DNA of 64,000 nt from Granulicella mallensis MP5ACTX8 (GTDB lineage Bacteria; Acidobacteriota; Terriglobia; Terriglobales; Acidobacteriaceae): contig NC_016631.1 of assembly GCF_000178955.2 (NCBI RefSeq), positions 1,984,001 to 2,048,000 on the forward strand, given 5' to 3'. Below the pieces are notes generated by a model. It did not search any database, was not told the DNA's origin, and saw only the letters and a list, made by a program, of their open reading frames with translations. Shown here in pieces: positions 48,938 to 59,662 of this stretch (its first letter is position 1; each line of letters begins with the position of its first letter). The position numbers and the translations under genes were made by a program.

Positions 48938-49046
48938 ACAGCGCGAAGCGCCATCCGCGACGCTTAGCGTCGCGGAGACGGAGGGAGCAGGGGCCTTCAG
49001 GCCCCTGAATTTGGCCTGGGCAAGAACGTGGCCTTTAGGCCCGGAG
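48938..49046. repeat. REP sequence, left flank of the RAYT
   Basis: A GC-rich stretch of consecutive palindromes (GCGCGAAGCGC, CGACGCTTAGCGTCG, GGGGCCTTCAGGCCCC, GGCCTTTAGGCC). It matches in inverted orientation the right flank at 49501-49616. Its right end overlaps the 3' end of the transposase gene and provides the stop codon. Confidence 0.85.
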
Positions 49047-49484
49047 GTGGAGCGGCATGGGGTCCAGCGGGCCACACCCTGCGGATGTGTAAGGATAAGC
49101 CTCCGGTGTCTGCGCGAGCCTCTCGTGAACAGGATTGTCTTCGATATACCTCACGCAGGTCAGGAACTTTTCTTCGTTCACAATCTGGCTCTCGTTAAAA
49201 CTTCGCATCCAGACATCGAATTTGCTCTTCAAACGAAAAGAGAATCCGCCCTTGATGAACTGCACGGCCTTCTCTAGCGAAATGTCGTGGGCAGGCGTGA
49301 TCAAAATGTGAAAGTGGTCGGGCATGATGACGAACGCATGAAGCAGGAATTTGCCCTGAGTGCGATAGTCAAAGATCGTTTGTTGTAATAGTTCAGCCGT
49401 GGCTGTGACCTGAAAGAGGCTTCGGCGTTGAGCTGTAACAGCGGTGACGTGGTAAGTTCGGGTTTCCTGTGGAGCACGATTCAT
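49035..49484 (-). CDS. REP-associated tyrosine transposase (RAYT, IS200-like)
   Basis: A 149-residue single-strand DNA nuclease of the Y1/HUH class. The HUH motif is H57-F58-H59 in MPDHFHILITP, and the presumed catalytic tyrosine is Y113 in VRYIEDNPV, both as in RAYTs. There is no second accessory gene. Inverted REP sequences lie on both sides; the TAA stop lies within a REP palindrome (GGGCCTAAAGGCC). This is the expected organisation of a RAYT that acts on REP elements of its own family. The gene appears intact. Confidence 0.88.
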   Translation of the reverse strand: MNRAPQETRTYHVTAVTAQRRSLFQVTATAELLQQTIFDYRTQGKFLLHAFVIMPDHFHILITPAHDISLEKAVQFIKGGFSFRLKSKFDVWMRSFNESQIVNEEKFLTCVRYIEDNPVHERLAQTPEAYPYTSAGCGPLDPMPLHLRA

Positions 49485-51924: not shown

Positions 51925-54900
51925 CTATTGATAGAGCAGATAAGCCGCACGCCGGTCCATGAAGTCATGGAGCGAGGGCTGCCACGATGCGGCGATCGTG
52001 CGTGGATCATCGCCACGTTCGAGCGAGTCCATGGTGGCGCGATTCACGATGAGGCGCATCGCCTTCTCCACTTGAAACTGCTCCGGATAGAGGCGATGCA
52101 GCACGCTGAGAATCTCGATGCCCATTGCGGGAGCATCGAGCACTTTGCGATCGGTGAGAGTCGCGCGCACGGCTTCGATCGTCTGGCCGTGGAAAGGGTA
52201 GTGGTTGGTGTCTTCGGAGATCGCGGTCGTCGTTGCGGCGAATGTCACGCCGGGGATATTCCGGGCATTGAGAGCTGCAGCTACATCGGCGGCCTTGAAC
52301 CATGCAGGCTTCTGTGCACCAGTCTTCGAGTCTTTGGCAGGCACACCCGCGCCGAAGAGCTCGAAGGGGATTGCCGTGCCGCGTCCTACGGAGACGTTGG
52401 TCGTCTCCAGAAGCCCCATCCCCGGATAGAGTGTCGCGGCGGTGACGCTGCGTAGGTTGGGGCTGGGATTGACCCACGGCAGGCCGGTGTTGTCGAAGAA
52501 TTCAGCGCGTGACCAGTGCTGCATCGGAATCACGGTAAGGTGTGCGCCGAGTCCTTTGCTGGATGGCGCTTGCGTGGCACGTGTGCGGTTGGCGGGGTCA
52601 GCCTCCGCGAAGAGTGCATCGCCGTGTGCGAGCGTCGAGGTCGCTTCGCCGTTGATGTATTGCGCGAGCTCTCCCAGCGTAAGGCCATTGCGCACGGGGA
52701 GCGGCATGTAATCAGTGTAGGACTCAAGACCCGCATCAGAGATCGGCCCCTGCACCTGTTCGCCGCCGATGAGGTTCGGGCGGTCGAGCACGAGGATCTC
52801 CAGGTCGTGATGGAACTCGTTCTTCTCCCGCGCGGCGGCTTCGAGGAAGTATCCGGTGACCGCTTCGTAGGTGTAGAAACGAACGCCCGCATCCTGCAGG
52901 TCAATCACGACCGCGTCGAGGTCTTTCAACTGCTCGTGCGAGGGGCGGCGGTCTGCGTCCTTCGCGCCATAGAGGCTGGTGACATGCAGGCCGGTGGCGG
53001 GATCAACTTCGGCGGCGATGGAGGTGGTGTCCTGTTTGCCGAAGATGCCATGTTCGGGAGAGAAGAGCGTGACGAGGTGGATCTTGTCTTCGCTGAGGTC
53101 AGGGCTGTGGAGGATATCTACCGTTCTCCGTCCCTGACTGTCGAGGCCTGTCTGGTTGGTGAGGAGCCCAAGACGGGCCTGCCCGTGATGTCTGCTCGCG
53201 AGTTCGTGCAGCGCGGCGTTGTGGGGTAGCTCGAGAACGTCGATGCCGGTGAGAGTGCGAGAGGATGAGATGCTCGAGCTGGTTCCTGACTCGTAGAGGT
53301 GCAGTGCCTGAGCCGCAGCGGAGGCGAACTCGCCGCGAAGATTCGAGATCGGCGGATTCCCGTGTGGATGGATCGCGTTTGCCAGCAAAATGACGTAGGT
53401 GTTGGAGCCGGGATCCATCCAGAGAGTGGTGCCGGTGAAGCCGGTGTGGCCGAAGCTGCCGATGGGGAAGACCGCGCCGCGTGGTTTGGAGAAGGCTGTG
53501 TCGATATCCCAGCCGTAGCCGCGCAGATCCTGCTCTTTGATGGCTGGATACATCGGTGCCAGTAGCGGAGCCGCTGGCTTCATTCCTGCGGCGATAGCTG
53601 CACGCTCAGCCGCATTGGCTTTCGTGAGCTGCTGGGCGTTGTGCCCGGGCTGCTCGGGAGTGGTCATCAGCTCGAGCGTCGATTGCTTCAGCGGGAAGTT
53701 GCTGGGACGGCCCGCGAGACGATCCAGTAAGCCCTGGGCGAAGAGCGAGACGTCGGCGGCGGTGGAGAAGACGCCAGCGTGGCCAGCGACACCCCCCATG
53801 CGGCGGGTGCTGGGATCATGTACCGAGCCGCGCAGCAGACGGTCGAAGTCAGGGTTGGTAGCAGGATCAGATTTGCCTTCATCATCGTGCGCGGTGGGGG
53901 CGATGCGCGGTAGGAGCGAGGTGCTCCAGTCTCCCTGGGGGCAGGCAAACAGCATATGCCCCGGCGGTGTGCGCTGCCATGCGATAGCCGAGCCGATGAC
54001 CTGGTGCGGGCCGCAGGCCTTTGCGAGAGGGAGGTAGCGGGTCTCCGTCATCTCCAGCGGTTTGTAGATGTGCTCCTGGGCATAGACATCGAGCGATTCG
54101 CCACTGAGGGTCTCGACGAGGTCGCCGAGCAGGATGAAGTTGATGTCCGAGTAGCGAAAGACCGCGCCCGGTGCGGACTGTAGTGGCGTCGTAAGCGCGC
54201 GGTGGAAGCCTTCGGCTTTGTCCGGTGCTGCCAGTCCCCAGGCGTCCTTCTGGTTGACGTCGGGAGCCTCGCCGGAGGTGTGAGTGAGCAGCATGCGGAT
54301 CGTTACCTGCGCGCGCTGGGCGTCGTTCGTGACGTTGAACGCGGGCAGGTACTTCTGGATGGGATCGTCGAACTGCAGCTTGCCCTGCTCGTAGAGCTGC
54401 ATCACGGCTGTGGCAGTGGAGAGGCACTTGGTGAGTGAGGCCATGTCGAAGATCGTGTCTTCGGTCATGGGTTCGGCGGGGGAGGGGGTGCCGTCGAGGC
54501 CGGGCTCTCCGGCGAGTTTGCGGAGGCCATAGGCCTGCTTGAAGACAATGTGGCCGCCGTGGCCGACCACGACGACGGCACCGGGGAGTTTATGCGCGGC
54601 GATGGCATCGTTGAGGAGCGTGGAGAGGGGGGTGAAGTCGGCGGTGGCGGTCGGCATGGGCGCTGGTCCCTGACGGACAGCAGGTTCCTCGGCTACGCCT
54701 CGGAATGACAACAAGAAAAGCAACGGCAAGAACAGGAGCGGCAGTGCGTTGGCTAGAGCCGTGCGGCTCTGCTGCGATTGCTTGCGGAAGATGAGGCTGG
54801 CGAGGGAGCCGATGGCGAAGGTCGCGAGGGCGCCAATGAGGACGTACCACGTGAAGGCGACGTGTGGGATAGTGATGGAGCCGAGGTGCACAGGGAACAC

Positions 54901-56301
54901 TCCTTGCCAGAGCCAAAGATTCAGCGCGAAGCCGCAGACCATGCCGATGATCGCTCCGACCTCTGTGGCGAAGCGGGTGAGTGTGCCGAGCAGGAAGACT
55001 CCTAGCAGACAGCCGTAGGCGACCGAAGCGATGGAGAGGCCGATCTCGACGACATGTCCCTTGCCTCCGACGCCAACCGAATAGACAGCAATGGCGAAGA
55101 GCACCAGTGCCCACAGCACTGTCGAAGACTTCGAAATGATCGCTCGTTCGCGATCGTCGGCCTGCGGGCGCAGGTGCATATAGAAATCGACGACGGTCGT
55201 TGACGACAGAGAGTTGAGTGCGGCGGAGAGGTTCGACATTGCCGCTGCGAGGATCGCCGCGACGAGCAGACCGGCGATGCCGATCGGCATCTCGCGAACG
55301 ATGAAGGTTGGGAAGATGCGATCGGAGCTGGTGAAGGTCGCGGGATGCTGGCCGTAGAAGACATACAGCCCCACGCCGATTAGCAGAAAGAATGCGAACT
55401 GCGCAAAGATCACAACGCCGGAGCTGAGAATGGCCAGGCGTGACTCGCGCAGGTTGCGCGCGGCCAGCATGCGCTGCACCATCAATTGGTCTGTGCCGTG
55501 CGAGGCCATCGTCAGGAACGTTCCGCCGAGCACACCGGCCCAGAAGGTGTAATTCTTCGTAAGGTTCATGCTGAAGTCGAGCATGTGGAATTTGCCTGCG
55601 GCTGAGGCCACGGCATGGATATGAGCCCATCCTCCATTGACGTGCGAGCCCAGTGTGAGGAGCGCGACGAGCGTGCCGCCGACGTAGATCGCCATCTGCA
55701 CGACGTCGGTCCAGATGACCGCTGCCATGCCGCCTTCGAAGGTGTAGAGCAGCGTCAGCGCGGAGATGATGGCGATGCTCAGGATGTCGCGGGTGCCGAT
55801 GGCGATGCCGACGACGATGGACACTGCGAAGACACGCACGCCTTCGGCTGCGGCGCGTGTCAGCAGGAAGAGCGCCGCCGTTACCTTGTGCAGCACGGGA
55901 CCGAAGCGCTGGTCGATGAGCTGATAGGCGGTGAGCATCTCGCCCGCGAAGTAGCGCGGCAGGAACAGCGCGGCCACGACGATGCGTCCCAGCATGTAGC
56001 CGATCACGACCTGCAGGAATCCGAAGTCCCCGGCGAAGGCGACGCCGGGGATGGAGATGATGGTCAGGGTCGAGGTCTCGGCCGACACGATGGAGAGCGC
56101 GATGGCCCACCAGGGAATCGTGTTGTTGGCGAGGAAGTAGCTCTTGAGCGAACGGTCGGACTTCGCGCCGCCGGACTTGCCGCGGAAGCGCAGGCCGAAG
56201 AGCGTGATGCCTATGAGGTAGATCGCCACCAGCGTTAGATCGAAGGCACTGAGCCGTGTTGAAGGAATGCCAAGCGCAAGTGCGGCGATCGTGTTCGGCA
56301 A
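51925..56301 (-). CDS. Three-part fusion: sodium/solute symporter, serine beta-lactamase-fold hydrolase and NamZ-type exo-N-acetylmuramidase
   Basis: A continuous 1458-residue frame. Residues 20-505 are an SSS symporter with about 13-14 helices and the sodium-site signature AAAMSNLSAALNSLSSTTVV (352-371). Residues 516-533 add a hydrophobic stretch that could turn the C-terminus outward. Residues 555-1005 are a class C-type serine hydrolase with S622-LT-K625, Y717-S-D and H952-TG. Residues 1016-1458 are a DUF1343/GH171 (NamZ) domain with LLTNQTG, SPEHG (1081-1085) and DLQDAGVRFYTY. In Bacillus subtilis, NamZ frees terminal MurNAc, AmiE (same fold as the middle part) removes the peptide and MurP imports MurNAc. 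The same three roles are suggested here. The start is probably TTG at 56301 behind GGGAGA; nagA ends 21 bases upstream. The linker is encoded by a dispersed repeat. Confidence 0.88.
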   Translation of the reverse strand: MPNTIAALALGIPSTRLSAFDLTLVAIYLIGITLFGLRFRGKSGGAKSDRSLKSYFLANNTIPWWAIALSIVSAETSTLTIISIPGVAFAGDFGFLQVVIGYMLGRIVVAALFLPRYFAGEMLTAYQLIDQRFGPVLHKVTAALFLLTRAAAEGVRVFAVSIVVGIAIGTRDILSIAIISALTLLYTFEGGMAAVIWTDVVQMAIYVGGTLVALLTLGSHVNGGWAHIHAVASAAGKFHMLDFSMNLTKNYTFWAGVLGGTFLTMASHGTDQLMVQRMLAARNLRESRLAILSSGVVIFAQFAFFLLIGVGLYVFYGQHPATFTSSDRIFPTFIVREMPIGIAGLLVAAILAAAMSNLSAALNSLSSTTVVDFYMHLRPQADDRERAIISKSSTVLWALVLFAIAVYSVGVGGKGHVVEIGLSIASVAYGCLLGVFLLGTLTRFATEVGAIIGMVCGFALNLWLWQGVFPVHLGSITIPHVAFTWYVLIGALATFAIGSLASLIFRKQSQQSRTALANALPLLFLPLLFLLSFRGVAEEPAVRQGPAPMPTATADFTPLSTLLNDAIAAHKLPGAVVVVGHGGHIVFKQAYGLRKLAGEPGLDGTPSPAEPMTEDTIFDMASLTKCLSTATAVMQLYEQGKLQFDDPIQKYLPAFNVTNDAQRAQVTIRMLLTHTSGEAPDVNQKDAWGLAAPDKAEGFHRALTTPLQSAPGAVFRYSDINFILLGDLVETLSGESLDVYAQEHIYKPLEMTETRYLPLAKACGPHQVIGSAIAWQRTPPGHMLFACPQGDWSTSLLPRIAPTAHDDEGKSDPATNPDFDRLLRGSVHDPSTRRMGGVAGHAGVFSTAADVSLFAQGLLDRLAGRPSNFPLKQSTLELMTTPEQPGHNAQQLTKANAAERAAIAAGMKPAAPLLAPMYPAIKEQDLRGYGWDIDTAFSKPRGAVFPIGSFGHTGFTGTTLWMDPGSNTYVILLANAIHPHGNPPISNLRGEFASAAAQALHLYESGTSSSISSSRTLTGIDVLELPHNAALHELASRHHGQARLGLLTNQTGLDSQGRRTVDILHSPDLSEDKIHLVTLFSPEHGIFGKQDTTSIAAEVDPATGLHVTSLYGAKDADRRPSHEQLKDLDAVVIDLQDAGVRFYTYEAVTGYFLEAAAREKNEFHHDLEILVLDRPNLIGGEQVQGPISDAGLESYTDYMPLPVRNGLTLGELAQYINGEATSTLAHGDALFAEADPANRTRATQAPSSKGLGAHLTVIPMQHWSRAEFFDNTGLPWVNPSPNLRSVTAATLYPGMGLLETTNVSVGRGTAIPFELFGAGVPAKDSKTGAQKPAWFKAADVAAALNARNIPGVTFAATTTAISEDTNHYPFHGQTIEAVRATLTDRKVLDAPAMGIEILSVLHRLYPEQFQVEKAMRLIVNRATMDSLERGDDPRTIAASWQPSLHDFMDRRAAYLLYQ
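54672..54736. repeat. Dispersed repeat lying inside the fusion gene (linker-encoding)
   Basis: On the plus strand it reads GACGGACAGCAGGTTCC, then GGCTACGCC, then GGAATGACAACAAGAAAAGC. It aligns with block 1 of the repeats at 18474 and 20177 (GGACAGCAG, then GGAATGACAAGCAAGAAAGGC) apart from the centre. It encodes residues about 523-543 (LFLPLLFLLSFRGVAEEPAV) between symporter and hydrolase. Confidence 0.75.
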
Positions 56302-56322: not shown

Positions 56323-57489
56323 CTAGATCGCTCGTCCGCGAATATAGGTGGCGACGAGGTTGTTCTTCGCGTCGAAGCGATTGAGGTTGGCGAACGATCC
56401 CGGAGCGAGCCGTGTGAGCTCCGGCCTGCCCAGCATGGCTGCGGGGTTGTGGGATGCAAGCCGAACCGCATCGCCTACCGAGGCATTGGTGAACCGCTGC
56501 AGGTTGGCGACAGCTCGGTCCAGCGTCAGCACTGAGCCGGCCAGCGTCTCTTTTCCGGCGGCCATGTCCTCGACCAACTGGGCACGGCCATGCGCCACGC
56601 GGACGGCCAGGCCACCGAGGGTGTAGTCCCCATCGGGCATACCCGCTGCGGACATCGCATCGGTGACGAGGATGGCATGGTCAAGCCCCTTGGCCTGCAA
56701 CCAGAGCCGCACCAGGGGGGGCGCGACGTGGATGCCGTCGCAGATAAGCTCGGCAAAGATCTCGGGATGATCGGGATGGGGATCGAGCACGGTGCCGAGC
56801 ACACCGGGCTCGCGGTGGTCGAGCGCGCGCATGGCGTTGAAGGTGTGGGTCGCACTGTTGGCTCCGGCTCCGATGCCTGCGATGGCTTCGGCGGCGGTCG
56901 CATTGGTATGGCCCAGCGAGAGCTTTACGCCCTGCCGATGAGCGTGCGCGATCAGACCGATGGCACCGGGAAGCTCCGGCGCGATTGTCATCAGCACGAT
57001 GTGCCCGCGTGCCGCGGCCTGGAAGCGGTCGAAGAGCTCGATGCTTGGGGTCTGCAGCTCCTGCGTCGGATGCACGCCGCGCTTGGCGCTCGAAAGAAAC
57101 GGGCCTTCGAGATGGATGCCGACGGGTTTCGCTTCGCCGTCGTGCGGCGCGGATTCAATGGCCTGGGCCAGGGCTTCGAGCGCGCGGAGCGTGGCATCCT
57201 CCGCGGCGGTCACGGTCGTCGGCAGATAGTGCGCGACGCCGCGCTTGGCGAGAAAGCGCTGGACCTCGCTGAGGTCCGAGGGCGAGGAGTACATCACGTC
57301 ATGCCCCATGGCGCCGTGGATGTGCACGTCGAAGAAGCCCGAGGTCAGCGTGTCCTGCTCGTTCGCCAGGGCGCGAGGGTCGGAGCTGATATCGGTGATG
57401 GTGCCGTCATCGGAGACGGTGATCACGGGGAATTCGACCGAACCAATGTCGGTTACAAGACGGCGGGCAGTAAGCGTAGTGGTAGTCAT
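56323..57489 (-). CDS. nagA: N-acetylglucosamine-6-phosphate deacetylase
   Basis: Converts GlcNAc-6-phosphate to glucosamine-6-phosphate in the cytoplasm, 388 residues. The ATG at 57489 is used, one base after the GH20 stop (TGACATG); codons upstream belong to the GH20 frame region. The amidohydrolase barrel shows H56-x-H58 (DVHIHGAMGHD), the metal glutamate in GIHLEGPF, LGHTNA, THTFNAM and the catalytic aspartate in TDAMSAAG. The closing LNRFDAKNNLVATYIRGR is usual. It connects extracytoplasmic release of amino sugars to central metabolism, but a GlcNAc kinase and NagB are not in the window. Confidence 0.92.
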   Translation of the reverse strand: MTTTTLTARRLVTDIGSVEFPVITVSDDGTITDISSDPRALANEQDTLTSGFFDVHIHGAMGHDVMYSSPSDLSEVQRFLAKRGVAHYLPTTVTAAEDATLRALEALAQAIESAPHDGEAKPVGIHLEGPFLSSAKRGVHPTQELQTPSIELFDRFQAAARGHIVLMTIAPELPGAIGLIAHAHRQGVKLSLGHTNATAAEAIAGIGAGANSATHTFNAMRALDHREPGVLGTVLDPHPDHPEIFAELICDGIHVAPPLVRLWLQAKGLDHAILVTDAMSAAGMPDGDYTLGGLAVRVAHGRAQLVEDMAAGKETLAGSVLTLDRAVANLQRFTNASVGDAVRLASHNPAAMLGRPELTRLAPGSFANLNRFDAKNNLVATYIRGRAI

Positions 57490-57490
57490 G

Positions 57491-59629
57491 TCAGTTTGTC
57501 GATGCCGGGGGTGGTGCGGGAATGCCTGTTTCAGTTGCGCTGGGAAGTACTTTATTGTCCGACCATTGGCGTTGCGCGGTGCGGACCTTGTCCATACGCG
57601 AGAGCCAGAGGGCGATGGTGTAGTCGTAGTGTTCGAGCACTGGACGTAGCGCGTACGGACGATTCGTCCGCAGCCAGCTTTGTGCATACAGATCGCGCAG
57701 CAGCGAGTAGCCGTCCTTGATGTCCTGAATGCGGCCGTTGACGCCGTTGATATCCGATAGCAGCGCGTTGACGGAGGGCTTGATCGTCCTGTCGCTGGAG
57801 TTCGAGGTCATCTGAGCGCGTGCGTAGTCGCGTGCGATCTCGTCGGCGAGTTGAAACTTGAGCCCGATGAAGTCCATGCGCCGAGCGCCGAGTTCCAGCG
57901 CGTCGATGGCGTCGGTTTCACGGAGATTGGTCGGGTTCGACGGAAGCTGGTTCGTCGGGGTGTAGACGACGGGCGAAGCCGCCGCCGGGGCTGCGGCGCG
58001 GGCCTGGGCGATCAGCTCGAGGGTCTTCTCCGCGTGCAGACGAAGCTCGTGCACATAGGGACGGATCTTGGCCGCATTCTGCTGCTGATCTTTGGCCCAG
58101 GGGTCGCTCCAGAAGAGCAGATCGGAGGCGTCGCTTACCTTGGCGTCTGTCTTCAGCAACTCATGGGCGGCCATCAGCTCAAGCTGCGCCTGGTTGAGCT
58201 TGCCGGTCATGTCGCCGTGGAAGACCTGCGCGTAGGTCTGCTCGAACTGAGGAATGGAGCTCTCGCCCTGCTGCCAGGCGGCAGCTGCACCGAAGAGGAT
58301 GCCGTACCAGTTGTTGGAGGCCAGGGCCTCGCCATCGTCGTACCAGATGGTGTTGAGCTGGCCGGTAGCGCCCATGCGCTGGCCGTCGCGTGTGAACTGC
58401 TGAATGTTATCGAGGCCGAGGTTGTAGTTCGGGTAGACGCGCGACCAGTTGTTGATGCCGGGAGCGACCCAGGTCTCGATGCCCGCGTCGGTGTAGGGCT
58501 TCAGGTACTTGGCGAAGCCGTGCGGGTTGGGGTTGTACTGCCAGCCGATGGCGATGGTGTCGCGCTTGAAGCTCTCAGGCATGGTCTTGAGCAGGTCAGG
58601 CGAGTCCTGGGCGATATCGCCCCAGAAGAGCAGCCGGCGATTGAGCGGGCGCAGGGTGATGTCGATCTGCTGCATGAAGTCGAGATACACCTTGCCGAGG
58701 CCGTCGCGGTCCACTGCCGCCTTGGTCTGGCCGAGGCCGAGGTCCTGTGTCTCATCAGCACCGACGTGCAGGAAGGGCGAGGGGTAGAGCTGTGCGAGTT
58801 CGCTGAACTCCTGAGAGATCAGCTTGAGCGAGCCGGGCTGTGCCGGGGCGAGCACCGCGCCGTGGGGCGTCTCTGCAAGCTGCTGGTACACCTCCGAGGT
58901 CAAGGCATGGTGCAGGTGTCCGAAGGCCTCCTGCTCGGGCACGACCATCACGTGATACTGCTTCGCGTAGGCGACGAGCTCACGCGCGTCGTCGGCGGTG
59001 ATGCTGCCTCCAGGAGGCGCGGGCAGGGGATTGGAGGCGTACTGCTGGGTGTGCTCGAAGTAGGGCGAGTAGAGATTCTCTTTGTAGGCCGCGATCGTGC
59101 GAACGATCTTCTTCTGGAACTCCAGGGTATCGACCGGGCCGCGGGAGAGGTCATCGTCCAGGCCGCGATACTTCATGGCAGGCCAGTCGCGGATGTTGGC
59201 AGCGCGGAGGACGAACTGGCGGTTTCCGGCGGACTCGATCATCTGCTTGACCGTCTGCGCGGCGTAGAAGACGCCCTCGGCGGTCGCTCCGGTGAGGGTC
59301 AGCATGCCGGAGGTGGAGACGATGGTGTAGCCCTCGGGCTTCATGGCGTCGGTAAAGGACGCGTCCGGGTGCTGGGCGAGGCGCTGCAGCACAATGCGCA
59401 GGCCGGAGCCTGTCTCCGGGATGCCGCGCTCGGCGAGAGTGATGCGCAGATCGGAGAGGGTGAACTGGTCCTCGGCGGTGCACGCTGTGCAGACGAGGGT
59501 GACACCGTTGTTCAGCGGTTGGTCCGGCCTGGGGGTGACCACTCGCGGCATCGGGATAAGGTGCGGCGTGGACTGTGCGGCTGCCGGCAGAGCAAGGGCC
59601 AGGAGTGCGGCGAGAGAACAAAGGCGCAT
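57491..59629 (-). CDS. Secreted GH20 beta-N-acetylhexosaminidase
   Basis: An exported exo-hexosaminidase of 712 residues that removes terminal GlcNAc (or GalNAc). The signal peptide is MRLCSLAALLALALPAAAQ, so the ATG at 59629 is preferred to the GTG at 59644; neither has a strong ribosome site. An N-terminal GH20b domain is followed by the TIM barrel, with the catalytic pair D292-E293 in FLHVGADET. The C-terminal 230 residues are helical and of unknown role. It is the first gene of the GH20-nagA-fusion operon and could replace NagZ by trimming GlcNAc from muropeptide chains so that NamZ can act; chitin-derived sugars from the GH18 chitinase would be substrates too. Confidence 0.9.
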   Translation of the reverse strand: MRLCSLAALLALALPAAAQSTPHLIPMPRVVTPRPDQPLNNGVTLVCTACTAEDQFTLSDLRITLAERGIPETGSGLRIVLQRLAQHPDASFTDAMKPEGYTIVSTSGMLTLTGATAEGVFYAAQTVKQMIESAGNRQFVLRAANIRDWPAMKYRGLDDDLSRGPVDTLEFQKKIVRTIAAYKENLYSPYFEHTQQYASNPLPAPPGGSITADDARELVAYAKQYHVMVVPEQEAFGHLHHALTSEVYQQLAETPHGAVLAPAQPGSLKLISQEFSELAQLYPSPFLHVGADETQDLGLGQTKAAVDRDGLGKVYLDFMQQIDITLRPLNRRLLFWGDIAQDSPDLLKTMPESFKRDTIAIGWQYNPNPHGFAKYLKPYTDAGIETWVAPGINNWSRVYPNYNLGLDNIQQFTRDGQRMGATGQLNTIWYDDGEALASNNWYGILFGAAAAWQQGESSIPQFEQTYAQVFHGDMTGKLNQAQLELMAAHELLKTDAKVSDASDLLFWSDPWAKDQQQNAAKIRPYVHELRLHAEKTLELIAQARAAAPAAASPVVYTPTNQLPSNPTNLRETDAIDALELGARRMDFIGLKFQLADEIARDYARAQMTSNSSDRTIKPSVNALLSDINGVNGRIQDIKDGYSLLRDLYAQSWLRTNRPYALRPVLEHYDYTIALWLSRMDKVRTAQRQWSDNKVLPSATETGIPAPPPASTN

Positions 59630-59662
59630 GAAAGTACGGTACACGGAGAAGCAGGTAACAGT

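Follow-up and report, generated by a model that had tools for sequence, protein, structure and literature searches.

The window, a stretch of 64,000 nucleotides from Granulicella mallensis, carries on its reverse strand one long reading frame that joins a sodium:solute symporter (SSS), a beta-lactamase-fold serine hydrolase and a NamZ domain. The earlier note had described one open frame with these three parts, and both the uninterrupted frame and the Pfam domains bear this description out. The TTG start codon is preceded, about 7 nt to its 5′ side, by the sequence AGGGAG. The two genes upstream are closely packed against the fused gene: the stop codon of nagA lies about 21 nt before the TTG, and the stop codon of the GH20-type glycosidase gene lies one base before the nagA ATG. 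Elsewhere in the window, a frame of 149 aa (49035-49484, reverse strand) with an HxH motif resembles, when read by eye, an IS200-like/REP-associated transposase.

Table 1. Positions in the window of the fused gene, its parts and the two genes upstream.
Feature	Position	Strand	Basis or detail
Whole fused gene	51925..56301	(-)	1458 aa, TTG start at 56301, stop at 51925
SSS (sodium:solute symporter) part, residues 19-509	54775..56247	(-)	Pfam SSF, TIGR00813, AlphaFold2 model
Joint, internal signal-peptide-like segment, residues 510-537	54691..54774	(-)	Positive n-region, hydrophobic helix 515-533, GVA/E site
Predicted signal peptidase I cut, A537 / E538	54690..54691	(-)	Motif; inferred
Beta-lactamase-fold serine hydrolase domain, residues 564-981, putative MurNAc-L-Ala amidase	53359..54612	(-)	Pfam PF00144, motifs
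NamZ (GH171, former DUF1343) domain, residues 1045-1457	51931..53169	(-)	Pfam PF07075, PF20732, fold 4k05
nagA, N-acetylglucosamine-6-phosphate deacetylase, directly upstream	56323..57489	(-)	TIGR00221 over cut-off
GH20-type glycosidase with signal peptide	57491..59644	(-)	Pfam PF02838/PF00728

Profile searches placed every domain far over its cut-off: SSF at residues 55-457 (E 1e-38), Beta-lactamase at residues 564-981 (E 1e-58), NamZ_N at residues 1045-1286 (E 1e-65) and NamZ_C at residues 1291-1457 (E 2e-35). Membership of the SSS family was indicated both by PF00474 (133 bits against a cut-off of 22.8) and by TIGR00813 (213 bits against 184). The catalytic motifs named in the earlier note were recovered in full; SxxK (S622-K625), YSD (717-719) and HTG (952-954) in the hydrolase and PEHG in NamZ are all intact and essentially invariant among 33 aligned homologues. 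The hydrolase thus has the fold together with the SxxK, YxD/N-type and HTG/KTG motifs of an AmiE-type amidase. Because no subfamily model scored over its cut-off for this domain (the best model was PBP4B, with 146 bits against 385), it is not filed here as AmiE, only as a domain that probably works alike, and the gene context suggests that it is probably an amidase. For the NamZ domain the NamZ/GH171 profile, the PEHG motif and the fold of 4k05 (target TM-score 0.88) all agree, and family and context together point to exo-muramidase activity.

A frameshift or assembly error near the joint, which the earlier note had named as a possible source of the long frame, was looked for and rejected, because the genome is a single contig and many genomes sequenced independently of one another show the same joint. 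In several relatives the fused joint lies within a single contig. The nearest records are from Granulicella, the protein of G. mallensis X5P3 being 97% identical over the aligned length. For this gene we also rejected the idea that the second half is translated on its own from a start within the linker: the window's linker offers no start codon in frame that is backed by a Shine-Dalgarno-like sequence, which makes such translation unlikely here. Candidate start codons were seen in the linkers of some relatives, and many linkers have no internal start backed in this way.

The same architecture, sought in related genomes as the earlier note had proposed, was found in three genera of soil Acidobacteriota, and none of the outcomes that the earlier note said would refute it came up. 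NamZ was detected in 25 of 28 Granulicella genomes, nearly always in frames of about 1330-1675 aa, and the exceptions to the fused frame were mostly contig ends or frame breaks of draft genomes. Inspection of 20 kb loci located all three parts in one frame in Granulicella (g1) and in its two sister genera, g35 and most of g32. The other sampled genera of the family had no three-part frame; there the SSS gene usually adjoins a two-domain hydrolase-NamZ gene, an arrangement present in most of the sampled unfused loci of the family. Across the phylum sample a close relative of the SSS part was present in 163 of 396 genomes, and among the roughly 150 matches listed SSS frames longer than 1250 aa occurred only in g1, g35 and g32, almost all the others measuring about 480-650 aa. 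Hydrolase and NamZ share one frame in all eight loci checked from other families (8/8). Since the SSS gene is separate elsewhere in the phylum, often beside hydrolase-NamZ, the hydrolase-NamZ fusion is the older one and the symporter joint is new.

A tree of 38 loci grouped the fused proteins in one clade that contains two split members (L091 and L092, both g32). Under parsimony two changes suffice, taken here as a single fusion followed by a single fission. That unrelated genes came together by chance was rejected, because unfused relatives carry these genes next to each other. Three records deserve separate mention. L037, titled Verrucomicrobia, has the same linker as G264, and by its fused protein and operon it falls within Granulicella; it is probably a mislabelled metagenome bin. 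A metagenome copy (L038:9865-11250) has a frame break within NamZ, and G188 carries, besides its fused NamZ, a further copy in a short frame of 429 aa (L066).

Unfused hydrolase-NamZ proteins carry a signal peptide at their N-terminus, and fused proteins have the same kind of segment right after the last helix of the symporter. Fused linkers contain 2-6 positive and 0-1 negative residues, with an n-region that is net positive in every case, followed by a hydrophobic core and a site of the type A-x-A before Q or E; in the window this site reads RKQSQQSRTALANALPLLFLPLLFLLSFRGVA, with EEP after the predicted cut. Called by a motif search and not by a trained predictor, such a site was present in 38 of the 44 distinct fused linkers of the wider set, with no clear site in the other six (6/44); the four regions fetched for L141-L144 missed the joint. 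In these 44 linkers position -3 is mostly small and positions -2 and +2 vary freely, while at positions -1 and +1 the motif's own definition limits the residues. As a control, the motif followed the linker helix in 21 of 24 fused proteins, but only 4 of the 244 other transmembrane cores in these proteins were followed by it. The proteins are related, so the Fisher p-value for this contrast does not stand for independent cases. Among unfused genes, a signal-peptide core followed by the motif was found in 11 of 14. The fused protein thus has the layout of a polyprotein with an internal signal, in which a signal-peptide-like segment and a cleavage motif stand ahead of the second part.

This arrangement agrees with the predicted topology. 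In the AlphaFold2 model the symporter part adopts a LeuT-type fold with 13 transmembrane helices, and an extra helix lies at the joint. The N-terminus is modelled outside, as is usual in the SSS family, and the C-terminus of the symporter part inside. An external N-terminus and 13 + 1 helices would place the hydrolases in the periplasm. Judged by its sequence features, the joint is the former signal peptide of the hydrolase, now an internal helix following the 13-helix symporter, and such an origin explains how, in one gene, a membrane protein with its C-terminus inside can be followed by an enzyme that has to be outside. The relative placement of the domains in the model is of low confidence (pTM 0.55), and we therefore claim no contact between enzyme and importer.

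The earlier note had put everything in one chain and had the released sugar or peptide channelled straight into the importer. The single chain holds for translation, but the signal-peptidase-I-like site retained at the former signal peptide means that the mature protein may be two chains, so that channelling need not follow. Going by the joint, the likelier fate of the precursor is that signal peptidase I cleaves it behind the internal signal, and we judge a cut precursor more likely than a true importer-enzyme machine. Were the chain to stay whole, a fourteenth helix would permanently hold both enzymes at the importer's periplasmic face and MurNAc would be handed over locally. Retention of the frame across three genera, the many linkers lacking a Shine-Dalgarno-backed start and the six lacking a clear cleavage site are all in keeping with such a tether, and the hydrophobic stretch in the window's linker, long at 19 residues and modelled as a helix, suffices for a helix and could remain as an anchor. 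We nevertheless regard a lasting tether as unlikely: a cleavage-type site has been kept in most linkers while other positions vary freely and lengths range from 71 to 136 residues, and one lineage has returned to two genes, indicating that covalent linkage is dispensable there.

The cut precursor overlaps with a neutral account, in which a stop codon was lost between neighbours, the products work as they do in relatives and nothing more than co-expression was gained; the two differ only in whether the fusion is selected. In unfused relatives SSS and hydrolase-NamZ mostly occupy directly adjacent or overlapping open frames, and the reverse change has happened once. However, three genera have diverged without losing the fused frame, beyond expectation for a drifting joint, which leaves neutrality a possible but doubtful account.

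Salvage of N-acetylmuramic acid (MurNAc), the role proposed in the earlier note, is the most likely function of the fused gene, and neighbouring murQ, MurNAc-kinase-like, GH3 and nagA genes support it. Every examined locus of the fused clade has GH20 upstream; most also have nagA, and several a BadF-type kinase. Among unfused loci, the order is TonB-type receptor, SSS, murQ, hydrolase-NamZ and GH3 in L105, and hydrolase-NamZ, SSS and murQ with a divergent GH3 in L094. Genes for murQ, a kinase, SSS, GH3 and hydrolase-NamZ also cluster in other families (L150, L151, L155 and L157). Of 20 loci sampled around SSS relatives from outside the family, 12 had one or more of these neighbours; the other 8 had none, which counts against the proposed role. 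In other genera (L101, L104 and L107-L110), hydrolase-NamZ has a divergent neighbour, a second serine hydrolase gene, which is paired with murQ.

The genomic link to murQ and a MurNAc kinase is thus seen in relatives, while the corresponding genes of the G. mallensis genome are present but distant, neither murQ nor the kinase lying beside the fused gene. Two MurQ genes scored over cut-off there (G000:C1:541698-542567 and 2561108-2561980), both away from the fusion, and two copies are found in most Granulicella genomes. The genome also has an AnmK gene and a kinase that, among PDB entries, most resembles a MurNAc/GlcNAc kinase.

From this gene context, the symporter would take up MurNAc coupled to sodium. 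SSS proteins carry many solutes, and among the closest relatives of known structure are carriers of sialic acid, iodide, vitamins and monocarboxylates, the best match being SiaT (5nva/5nv9, target TM-score 0.86). The transported solute could accordingly be another product of the same enzymes, such as the stem peptide, a D-amino acid or GlcNAc, the last of which the adjoining nagA and GH20 genes would fit too. Unfused orthologues, however, adjoin murQ and MurNAc-kinase-like genes, which encode the steps after MurNAc import, and we consider a solute other than MurNAc improbable.

Taken together, the data lead us to favour, with moderate confidence, a MurNAc-salvage precursor in which the symporter and a secreted hydrolase-NamZ protein are joined through a signal peptide, exported and probably cut. 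The symporter gene would have been joined head-to-tail to the downstream gene for the secreted serine hydrolase-NamZ, and the internal signal or anchor helix after the thirteenth helix would pass the hydrolase part into the periplasm. Signal peptidase I would then cut the precursor after the internal signal (GVA/EE), yielding importer and free periplasmic enzyme in equal amounts. Going by family and gene context, NamZ would remove MurNAc from glycan ends in the periplasm, the serine hydrolase would probably strip the stem peptide and the GH20 enzyme encoded upstream would take off GlcNAc. Free MurNAc imported with sodium would be phosphorylated by a MurNAc/GlcNAc-type kinase and turned by MurQ into GlcNAc-6-P, which NagA would deacetylate for entry into central amino-sugar metabolism.

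As a Rosetta-stone fusion, the gene links a sodium symporter with the salvage of peptidoglycan sugars on genetic grounds alone and provides a candidate MurNAc symporter across much of Acidobacteriota. The relatives form a natural series (unfused, fused with a site, fused without a clear site and split again) that allows the fate of a signal peptide inside a membrane protein, cut or kept as an anchor, to be tested. If the tethered reading were true, the protein would be a self-contained importer-amidase-muramidase, with its enzymes held over the mouth of the symporter by a recruited signal peptide. The earlier note knew of no described protein of this type. The fusion is genuine, conserved and previously unreported in the literature searched, which yielded no report of such an SSS-hydrolase-NamZ fusion and nothing on internal signal peptides in bacterial precursors; the hydrolase-NamZ pair is nevertheless old across the phylum, leaving only the symporter joint as special, and the salvage system itself is known.

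In fbcH of Bradyrhizobium (cytochrome b/c1), a membrane protein is fused to an exported protein via a signal peptide and the product is cut into two. To our knowledge this is the nearest known precedent for the joint; such polyproteins serve a respiratory complex, whereas the present one, with its predicted cut, would serve nutrient uptake. SiaT, a sodium-coupled sialic acid symporter, likewise carries an N-acetylated acidic sugar, but it has no fused enzyme and shares about 25% identity with the symporter part, a distance at which its substrate is not transferable.

In Bacillus subtilis, the murQ-murR-murP-amiE-nagZ-ybbC(namZ) cluster encodes a PTS importer, a beta-lactamase-fold amidase and the exo-muramidase NamZ in separate genes (PMC5061867). 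The same tasks recur at the present locus and in its genome, namely amidase, NamZ, a GlcNAc-releasing enzyme, importer and MurQ, but here a sodium symporter is joined to the amidase-like domain and NamZ, GH20 and nagA adjoin instead of nagZ, and murQ is elsewhere. The earlier note's view that a sodium symporter stands in place of the PTS importer is supported; the swap is not new, since the MurT importer of Tannerella forsythia was already known. In the ybbC-murTKQ operon of that species, genes for a kinase, an etherase and a NamZ-type protein accompany an importer that takes up MurNAc independently of a PTS (PMC5388701, PMC5790795, PMC10465942). One passage of PMC5790795 assigns MurT to the sodium symporter superfamily, and another places it among the major facilitators. 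By description, the two systems are alike in having an importer other than a PTS protein and an adjoining NamZ gene; the T. forsythia proteins are separate, whereas here importer and secreted enzyme are joined through a signal peptide.
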